A stretch of DNA of 20,926 bases, taken from positions 1-20,926 of IMG/VR virus record IMGVR_UViG_3300047562_002719; one strand, 5' to 3'. Origin of the DNA: a virus. The translations under genes and the position numbers were made by a program. This document shows positions 134 to 19,513 of the stretch, piece after piece (position 1 is the stretch's first letter; each line of letters begins with the position of its first letter). The notes beneath the pieces were generated by a model. It saw only the letters and a list, made by a program, of their open reading frames with translations. It was not told the DNA's origin and did no database searches.

Positions 134-145
134 TTGTTAAAGAGC
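134..145 (-). promoter_or_regulatory. boxA-like antitermination site
   Basis: The minus strand reads GCTCTTTAACAA, identical over 12 nt to the boxA core of the E. coli rrn leaders. In bacteria this RNA element is bound by NusB-S10 and makes RNA polymerase resistant to Rho on rRNA operons. It sits 27 nt downstream of a TATAAT box and 1 nt after a GAAA-capped hairpin, the same boxB-then-boxA order as in rrn leaders. The match is seen directly; antitermination by host Nus factors is inferred. Confidence 0.7.
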
Positions 146-146
146 T

Positions 147-164
147 GCTAACCTTTCGATTAGC
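147..164 (-). promoter_or_regulatory. boxB-like RNA hairpin before boxA
   Basis: On the minus strand GCTAATC-GAAA-GGTTAGC forms a 7-bp stem (one U-G pair) closed by a C-G pair and capped with a GAAA (GNRA) tetraloop. It ends one base before the boxA match. The rrn leaders of enterobacteria likewise place a hairpin (boxB) immediately before boxA. A role as a boxB analogue rests on position and shape only. Confidence 0.55.
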
Positions 165-172
165 GATGGCTG

Positions 173-222
173 ATTATACACCAACCTTGTTTTTTTGTGC
201 CGCGATCGAAGATTTTTTTTTT
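173..222 (-). promoter_or_regulatory. rrn-like sigma-70 promoter with upstream A-tract
   Basis: TATAAT lies at 173-178 (minus strand) and is followed by CAGCCATCGCT, which matches the start region of E. coli rrnB P1 (GCGCCACCACT) at 7 of 11 positions. A run of ten A residues (213-222) falls at about -47 to -56, where rRNA promoters have an UP element. That run is in the loop of a 7-bp inverted repeat (206-212 with 225-231). The -35 element is poor. Transcription would enter the hairpin and boxA leader within about 15 nt. Confidence 0.55.
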
Positions 223-271
223 CATCTTCGACCTCGACCGTCTTCAAGCACCTTGGCTTGATCGATGACTC

Positions 272-321
272 ATTATACCGCGAACTCGATTAAATTTGTC
301 ATAGTCTACCGTTCTTGTCAA
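272..321 (-). promoter_or_regulatory. Upstream tandem promoter of the leader, extended motif
   Basis: TATAAT lies at 272-277 and TTGACA at 316-321, with 38 nt between. This is too long for a simple -35/-10 pair. The interval contains CGGT, ACTA and CAAATTTA (the last at the usual -35 position), and the same elements with the same spacing occur in the promoter at 3843-3892. TATAAT is followed by GAGTCATCG, similar to the start region of the downstream promoter (CAGCCATCG). The two TATAAT boxes are 99 bp apart, reminiscent of rrn P1/P2. Confidence 0.6.
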
Positions 322-8289: not shown

Positions 8290-8352
8290 TTAGTTGAAAG
8301 GACGAAAGTGTGCTCTTGGGTCGGTAAGTTTTAGTTTTGATTTTTTGATCAT
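8290..8352 (-). pseudogene. Orphan 5' fragment of nrdB (20 codons)
   Basis: The ATG at 8352 overlaps the aldolase stop (ATGA) and has AGGAAA upstream, the usual coupling in this operon. The 20 residues include KLKLTDPRAHFRPFN, matching QLKLTDKRDYFKPFK near the start of the intact NrdB. About 13 of 20 residues are identical with one 4-residue gap. The frame stops at TAA right after the codons corresponding to PF-N, just where NrdB continues YPQFYEAW. I read it as the original nrdB start, cut off by the endonuclease insertion. Confidence 0.8.
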
Positions 8353-8993
8353 GTCTTTCCTGCTAGAATAATTTTACAGATGTGTTCTAACCTTTCGATG
8401 TGCTCGAAAGCTCTCCATGGAGATGTGTCTACCGCTATTACACCATGTCTATCCATGCCTACTGCATTATATTCTATCTTGCCATTTTCAGGGTTCAAGC
8501 CGATGTTCTTTACACACGCGTCTGCGAGTTCCTGTGTGATCGGCGGTAGCATAGGAACGCTTGGTGCTACCGTCGTGTATCTGCTTAACTCAGGGAACTG
8601 TTCGGTCACCTTTGAGATGTCGATGCCGCGATACATAGCAGCAACTATATATGTAGGGTGAAGGTGGATCACCACCCTAACTTCAGAGTCAATCTTACGC
8701 TGCAATCCCAAGTGCATAGGTAACTCTCCGCTTGGTTTAAGGTTAGAAGAGATGTCAGTGTATGGCATATCTTCATGACCGTATAAGACGAACGGAGGAG
8801 CAGCGTAACTCGTTTCAGTGAACTTGATCTTCTTGAACATCTCGGGCTGAAGGTTTTGTTTCCTTACCCCAGATGGAGTGACATAGAAGTGATCACGATC
8901 ATGCCAACGGATAGAAGCGTTGCCGTCACGAGCTGTTATCCAGTTACGTGCATACGCTTCTTTAAATATATCACAGATTGTCTCTAGCATCAT
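8349..8993 (-). CDS. Class II aldolase/adducin-family enzyme
   Basis: This 214-aa protein has the zinc-aldolase signature: GNAS at 24-27 (phosphate loop), SGE with E90, HLH with H110 and H112, and DRHG with H183. Together these give the metal site of the L-fuculose-phosphate aldolase / ribulose-phosphate epimerase / methylthioribulose-phosphate dehydratase superfamily. The substrate cannot be set from sequence. It lies between the SNase gene and nrdB inside the nucleotide-precursor operon, so a role in sugar-phosphate or salvage metabolism is possible. ATG 8993 has AAAGG upstream. Confidence 0.85.
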   Translation of the reverse strand: MMLETICDIFKEAYARNWITARDGNASIRWHDRDHFYVTPSGVRKQNLQPEMFKKIKFTETSYAAPPFVLYGHEDMPYTDISSNLKPSGELPMHLGLQRKIDSEVRVVIHLHPTYIVAAMYRGIDISKVTEQFPELSRYTTVAPSVPMLPPITQELADACVKNIGLNPENGKIEYNAVGMDRHGVIAVDTSPWRAFEHIERLEHICKIILAGKT

Positions 8994-18610: not shown

Positions 18611-19495
18611 TCATCCCTTCTTCATCTTTTCGATCTCATCAGCGGTTTTGCCCATGTACTTCTGGCGAAGCTTCGCTGCATCAATATTTTTCTTGAATTT
18701 AGCTGCTAATTCTGGATCAGCGCGTAACATCCAACCTGGACGATGGTTACCCTTACCTGTGTATGGTGCTTCGTCGAGTTCTTCATTTGTGAACTTTACT
18801 CTTGGCTTACCATCAGAGGCATGCTCCCAACCTTTTGCCCATTGTGCTGCGCCTTCAGAACCTTCTTTATATGGGTTGTGTTGACGAGTCTTCTTTTGTC
18901 CATGTGCGTCGTATCCAGCGTGATATGGGTGTTGAGTCTTGCTTTCTTCCATCACGTAGACTCTACTGTGACCGTTCTTCTTAGCCCATTGTTGAGCTGA
19001 CTTCTTAGCGTCAGAGAATGATCCTCTTGCAGAGTGAACTTGTGATTCGTCTTTATAGTCAACGCTTCCCATCGGCTTATGTGTAAACATCCATGTGCCG
19101 TTACCACCAGAAGCTTTCTTTCCATGAGATCTCATATAACGATCATGAGAAACTTCAACAGCCTCATCGAGTAGAGCGCATTCTCTGACGCGATCGATCA
19201 TCTCTGCGAGTGATTCAACCTCTTCTTTGACCGCGCCTCGCTTAGCAGCATAGTATGCCCCAAGAGCCATGTTGATGCGCTTCTTCTTGCTCTTACCCTC
19301 AAACTTAGGGTCATCCGACTTAACAAAATCAGAAATCCACTTAGAAGCAGGATCGTCTTTACTTAAGACTTCATTGACTACGTTTGTTTTACGCATTGGC
19401 TCTTCTTCTCCCTTATTGAACACGATCTTGTGTGCTCTTACTTTTCTACCGCTTTTATTAAGCTTATATTCTGCAGTATCTTGAACGTCTGGCAT
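18611..19495 (-). CDS. Modular charged protein with RMF/CrpP-like motif (294 aa)
   Basis: Several short modules are joined by acidic linkers (KEEVESLAEM, CALLDEAVEV, NEELDEAPY). One contains AGYDAHG...QHNPY...AAQWAKGWEHA (about 194-226), the G-A-NPY-W-GW pattern of ribosome-modulation-factor and CrpP-like domains. The C-terminal module reads APYTGKGNHRPGWMLR. The ATG at 19495 is preceded by AAGGAG; the adjacent GTG at 19498 is the alternative. It groups with the two downstream modular proteins. Function is not known. Confidence 0.7.
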   Translation of the reverse strand: MPDVQDTAEYKLNKSGRKVRAHKIVFNKGEEEPMRKTNVVNEVLSKDDPASKWISDFVKSDDPKFEGKSKKKRINMALGAYYAAKRGAVKEEVESLAEMIDRVRECALLDEAVEVSHDRYMRSHGKKASGGNGTWMFTHKPMGSVDYKDESQVHSARGSFSDAKKSAQQWAKKNGHSRVYVMEESKTQHPYHAGYDAHGQKKTRQHNPYKEGSEGAAQWAKGWEHASDGKPRVKFTNEELDEAPYTGKGNHRPGWMLRADPELAAKFKKNIDAAKLRQKYMGKTADEIEKMKKG

Positions 19496-19513
19496 CACGC
19501 TCTCCTTTATTTA

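Follow-up and report, generated by a model that had tools for sequence, protein, structure and literature searches.

A phage control region whose layout resembles the beginning of a bacterial rRNA operon raises the question of what is read from it. In such rrn operons, boxA recruits NusB-S10, which shields untranslated transcripts from Rho; to our knowledge, few studies have asked how phages manage to transcribe arrays of tens of tRNA genes, whose RNA is untranslated and sensitive to Rho. The stretch of DNA analyzed here (the window) is the entire IMG/VR record IMGVR_UViG_3300047562_002719, with a length of 20,926 bp. It is a fragment of a T4-like phage, encoding ribonucleotide reductase subunits, a T4-type RNase H, a DUF6433 protein, a SegE-like protein, and thymidylate synthase, all on the minus strand. 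The last gene before the leader (690-484, minus strand) encodes 68 amino acids. Past it, an intrinsic terminator at 363-344 (minus strand; an 8-bp stem, then AAATTTTT) ends the upstream minus-strand operon. On the 3' side of this terminator, the leader follows on the minus strand in the order TATAAT, A10 inverted repeat, TATAAT, hairpin, and boxA, and reads off the left edge. Because the window is the complete record, the genes downstream of boxA are not directly readable. Elsewhere in the window, a 295-amino-acid protein (18,611-19,498) contains an internal segment that weakly matched ribosome modulation factor (RMF; E 1.5e-4, short of the curated cut-off), and a class II aldolase/adducin-domain protein, unusual for a phage, is encoded at 8349-8993 amid nucleotide-metabolism genes.

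The promoter-like elements of the leader were examined against an earlier note on this DNA, which had described tandem TATAAT boxes 99 bp apart. Both boxes were present on the minus strand, at 277-272 (P1, with a weak -35 box ATGACA at 302-297 and a 19-bp spacer) and at 178-173 (P2, with a weak -35 box GGCACA, 3/6 matches, at 201-196 and a 17-bp spacer). TATAAT occurs eight times in 41.8 kb (both strands of the window), so that two copies on the same strand within 105 bp are locally unusual. A consensus promoter scan of the window called neither P1 nor P2. The ten-A tract was likewise found, at 222-213, which, with +1 placed near 167, corresponds to about -46 to -55 relative to P2. It occupies the loop enclosed by a perfect 7-bp inverted repeat, CGAAGAT...ATCTTCG (230-207, minus strand), a candidate UP-like element of P2 that was absent from the earlier note; since this repeat lies between the two promoters, RNA started at P1 would fold the A10 tract into a hairpin. 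The likeness that the note saw between the start region and rrnB P1 was loose and indistinguishable from chance. Of a pair of strong tandem promoters with an UP element, the two TATAAT boxes and the A10 tract were seen, and both -35 boxes were weak.

Downstream of P2, the GAAA-capped 7-bp hairpin GCTAATC-GAAA-GGTTAGC was found as described, at 164-147 (minus strand), directly upstream of boxA, so that a boxB-type hairpin stands between P2 and boxA at the position of rrn boxB. The boxA, reported as identical to that of rrn, is indeed an exact GCTCTTTAACAA at 145-134 (minus strand) and the sole exact copy in the record; GCTCTTTAACA, which defines the rrn type, is present in this predicted leader. 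An exact boxA would be expected by chance about 0.004 times in the window, as scaled from a shuffle expectation of 2.4 at two or fewer mismatches. No match to boxC (UGUGUGGG), which lies 18-19 nt after boxA in rrn, was observed in positions 1-133 with up to one mismatch; boxC is not required for factor recruitment, and the boxB hairpin is reported to be dispensable in E. coli rrn (PMC10250234). A small hairpin, AACCTT-CAG-AAGGTT, read directly from the leader, is located 3' of boxA at 103-89 (minus strand).

The record stops 133 nt past boxA, and neither a complete tRNA nor an Rfam family was detected in the window by ARAGORN and Rfam searches; direct DNA-similarity searches with the window were likewise negative. 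A protein gene directly after the leader, which would have spoken against a stable RNA, was not found, as 3/3 frames contain stops in the available 133 nt. Positions 42-1 (minus strand) probably represent the 5' half of a gene for a tRNA or tRNA-like RNA that the contig end truncates, with T8, the D-stem, A14, G18G19, and A21 in register. This 5' signature is expected 0.03 times per 133 nt, with a pattern that recovered just 407 of 728 known tRNAs. Aligned without gaps and in register, the window end was identical at 23/31 positions to a tRNA-like gene from phage BUCT-ZZ01; among 1500 random window segments, the highest value was 21. This test was adopted because a gapped local alignment of the window end with tRNAs was unconvincing (it scored 30, where shuffled sequences reached at most 27 and one random window segment 34). 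The assignment is graded only as probable, since the anticodon arm of the partial tRNA pairs improperly and the BUCT-ZZ01 gene is itself odd, having a two-base anticodon according to ARAGORN. The best sub-threshold Rfam matches (blv_FSE, snoR12, and sraA) fell on the terminator and on the hairpin with the A tract and were rejected as due to chance.

We then compared the window with its relatives. The DUF6433 protein scan found a single one (L121; 67% protein identity), in which the gene order is kept and the RNase H region shows 67% DNA identity. After its small genes, L121 carries a promoter-like TATGATATAGT stretch, then the hairpin GCCGC-AAAG-GCGGC and GATCTTTAACAAGTTGC, followed by tRNA-Glu 25 nt past boxA and then by tRNA-Asp. 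Between and after its tRNA genes (L121:5339-5640), two stretches closed by the long inverted repeats TTCGTTTAGCGTTATC...GATAACGCTAAACGAA and GTCAGAAG...CTTCTGAC are reminiscent of structured spacer RNAs within a phage tRNA array. Judged by a single marker gene (a neighbouring gene, 35% identity), the nearest cultured relative was BUCT-ZZ01 (ON615601.1), whose leader consists of TTGACA-N17-TATTAT and then GATCTTTAACAATTT at 128,994 on the minus strand; 280 nt past this boxA begins an array of tRNAs that run in the same direction (Tyr, Pro, Asp, Glu, Asn, and others). Conservation of boxA in related phages, on which the earlier reading had been made to depend, was thus observed, as GATCTTTAACAAG in L121 and GATCTTTAACAATTT in BUCT-ZZ01, in both cases ahead of tRNAs. 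ON615601.1 was deposited as a cyanophage; it gave the best cultured match to the phrog_11903 gene of the window, ahead of Proteobacteria phages, and its tRNA array is not annotated.

These comparisons bear on the possibility of a nut-like site, where boxA would act with a phage-encoded N-type antiterminator in the reading of early protein-coding operons. Lambdoid phages do use boxA (PMC4807359), and some phage TATAAT-boxA sites are followed by an ORF within 40-150 nt. The arrangement in the window, however, is that of rrn (boxB-boxA-boxC, PMC10250234) rather than that of lambda: whereas the lambdoid boxB lies directly 3' of boxA, here the hairpin lies 5' of boxA and the next one begins only 30 nt past it, and the relatives carry tRNA genes at that place. 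The window would share with lambda nutL and nutR a phage boxA and, as predicted, host Nus factors, but the lambda sites need N and have boxB after boxA, and no N gene was identified in this fragmentary record, although N proteins are highly variable. On balance, a nut-like site appeared unlikely.

To place the leader among other phages, viral contigs were scanned for TATAAT-N10-40-GCTCTTTAACAA, which yielded at least 119 stretches, with 93 distinct sites among the matches listed. A same-strand tRNA lay within 1 kb downstream at 18/93 of these listed sites, and within 200 nt at 12. A complete scan with a reversed boxA gave 53 stretches and 41 distinct sites, 0/41 with a tRNA, and a one-base-changed boxA gave 2/55, both of these tRNA-bearing sites being decayed boxA leaders in appearance, by eye. 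The 18/93 among the matches listed differed from both the reversed control (Fisher p 0.0008) and the one-base control (Fisher p 0.005), although such counts are not independent samples, because the contigs are partly related, were chosen by match, and are viral according to IMG/VR. With a second boxA form, GATCTTTAACAA, 11/93 sites had a tRNA, one of them standing ahead of 35 tRNA genes; against the one-base control, the association in this set alone was only suggestive (p 0.08). In 17 tRNA-bearing contigs of the first set, among the matches listed, CTCTTTAACAA occurred exactly once per contig, and the reversed word did not occur. A GNRA hairpin of at least 4 bp between the -10 box and boxA was present in 4/19 tRNA leaders (L019, L023, L075, and L107), a count that leaves out the window with its 7-bp hairpin, compared with a mean of 0.3 in shuffled sequences, 0/500 of which reached 4.

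The survey also returned sites of other kinds. At L008, L028, L052, L060, L110, and L111, a promoter-like TATAAT and an exact rrn boxA precede an ORF within about 15-150 nt instead of tRNA genes; these are possibly nut-like sites or boxA-led mRNA operons. Three related leaders (L038, L106, and L118) combine TTGACA and TATAAT with boxA and the hairpin GAAGC-GAAA-GCTTC. In the sequence available, neither a tRNA nor an early ORF was found close to them, and they may head an uncharacterized noncoding RNA.

The control scans also weigh on whether the boxA of the window might have no function and have arisen by chance in an early or middle promoter region of the ordinary kind. The weak -35 boxes would agree with this, as would the fact that TATAAT is not rare across the window. 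Against it, the exact 12-mer sits in the sole stretch where it would be sensible, L121 and BUCT-ZZ01 share the architecture, and the tRNA association exceeds that of the controls. We regard a chance boxA as improbable.

Among 15 cultured large phages, picked as tRNA-rich or related, only XacN1 had TCTTTAACAA in a tRNA-bearing region. In XacN1 (AP018399; 36,633-39,053), boxA lies in an early region with tRNAs and is followed by about 2.4 kb without an annotated gene and then by tRNA-Gly; this gap possibly holds an undescribed noncoding RNA. No TCTTTAACAA was observed near the tRNA genes of the tRNA-rich T4-like phages KVP40, nt-1, Aeh1, 65, and 133. As many tRNA-rich T4-like phages have no such motif near their tRNAs, the boxA-tRNA leader is patchy in its distribution.

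The 17-mer GCTCTTTAACAACTTGC was further searched in 84,980 species genomes and gave 39 matches, of which 7/39 (L200, L201, L206, L222, L223, L234, and L235) lie 44-47 nt upstream of a tRNA; these come from Rubrivivax, Inhella, Rhizobacter, and two unclassified Proteobacteria. At L223, the first tRNA was missed by ARAGORN, yet its sequence is identical. In Piscinibacter (L205), tRNA-Arg lies 337 nt past GCTCTTTAACAACTTGC. The Piscinibacter genome contains TCTTTAACAA only three times, in the rrn spacer and at two tRNA loci, and the Inhella genome only twice, in the rrn spacer and at a tRNA array. At these seven loci and L205, long Burkholderiales tRNA arrays open with a conserved boxA leader past a terminator. 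These chromosomal arrays indicate that boxA ahead of tRNA arrays is not restricted to phages. They share GCTCTTTAACAACTTGC with the window, the seven loci having it 44-47 nt ahead of the tRNA that opens a long array, and differ in lying on chromosomal contigs and in a leader that is unlike that of the window outside the 17-mer.

The earlier note had proposed that the phage copies or has captured the rrn system for a stable-RNA cluster. The association of boxA with tRNAs in L121, BUCT-ZZ01, and other phages upheld the link to stable RNA, but capture was not borne out, as the likeness found to host leaders extends over no more than about 17 nt. Recombination with a host rrn or tRNA-array leader would agree with the presence of GCTCTTTAACAACTTGC at the head of tRNA arrays on the chromosomes of Rubrivivax, Inhella, Piscinibacter, and Rhizobacter, but it is as improbable as a chance boxA, since outside the 17-mer no similarity to those bacterial leaders is visible, phage records gave no match to the 500-bp region, and the L121 and BUCT-ZZ01 leaders have diverged and carry another second base in boxA, pointing to an old phage feature.

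Taken together, these data make it likely that the region serves as promoter and leader for a phage tRNA array lying past the contig end, and that it would recruit host NusB-S10 against Rho. Host RNA polymerase would start at P2, and perhaps also at P1; the nascent RNA would fold the GAAA-capped hairpin, leaving boxA exposed for binding by host NusB-S10, which, together with NusA, NusG, and possibly SuhB, would turn the polymerase into an rrn-type antitermination complex able to traverse a long, structured array that is not translated, with no termination by Rho. The motifs stand ahead of tRNA genes in the relatives and in many other phages; for the window, we infer that factors would bind the leader and bring about antitermination and that its own array would consist of tRNAs. 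Recruitment of the rrn complex requires boxA and nothing beyond it, and in the E. coli rrn leader boxB, boxA, and boxC follow in order just after P2 (PMC10250234). The window shares with this leader the tandem promoters, a hairpin and then an exact boxA after P2, and, as seen in its relatives, a stable-RNA context; it differs in belonging to a phage genome, in the predicted tRNA array instead of rRNA, in its weak -35 boxes, and in having neither boxC nor a second boxA in the record. BoxA is also functional outside rrn (PMC4807359), and boxA ahead of CRISPR arrays raises distal transcription (Stringer et al., cited in PMC7862264). The CRISPR system likewise places an rrn-type boxA before a long, untranslated, repeat-like array, but one of bacterial crRNAs and not of phage tRNAs.

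Since the same signal is found ahead of tRNA clusters in relatives and in unrelated phages, phages seem to borrow the host machinery that protects rRNA transcription. With somewhat less confidence than in the function of this leader, we favor the view that an rrn-type boxA leader, often with a hairpin, has arisen independently ahead of the tRNA arrays of many unrelated phages and ahead of some bacterial ones. We found no prior description of a phage boxA with tRNA or NusB in the open-access literature, though an earlier report may exist. The role of boxB in rrn has been described as puzzling (PMC10250234), and the GAAA-capped hairpin offers a comparative handle on it. If the general view is correct, host rRNA antitermination would be a general route, free of phage proteins, by which lytic phages express long tRNA clusters; tRNA-rich phages would depend on host NusB, S10, and possibly SuhB, and boxA would mark the start of phage and chromosomal tRNA arrays.
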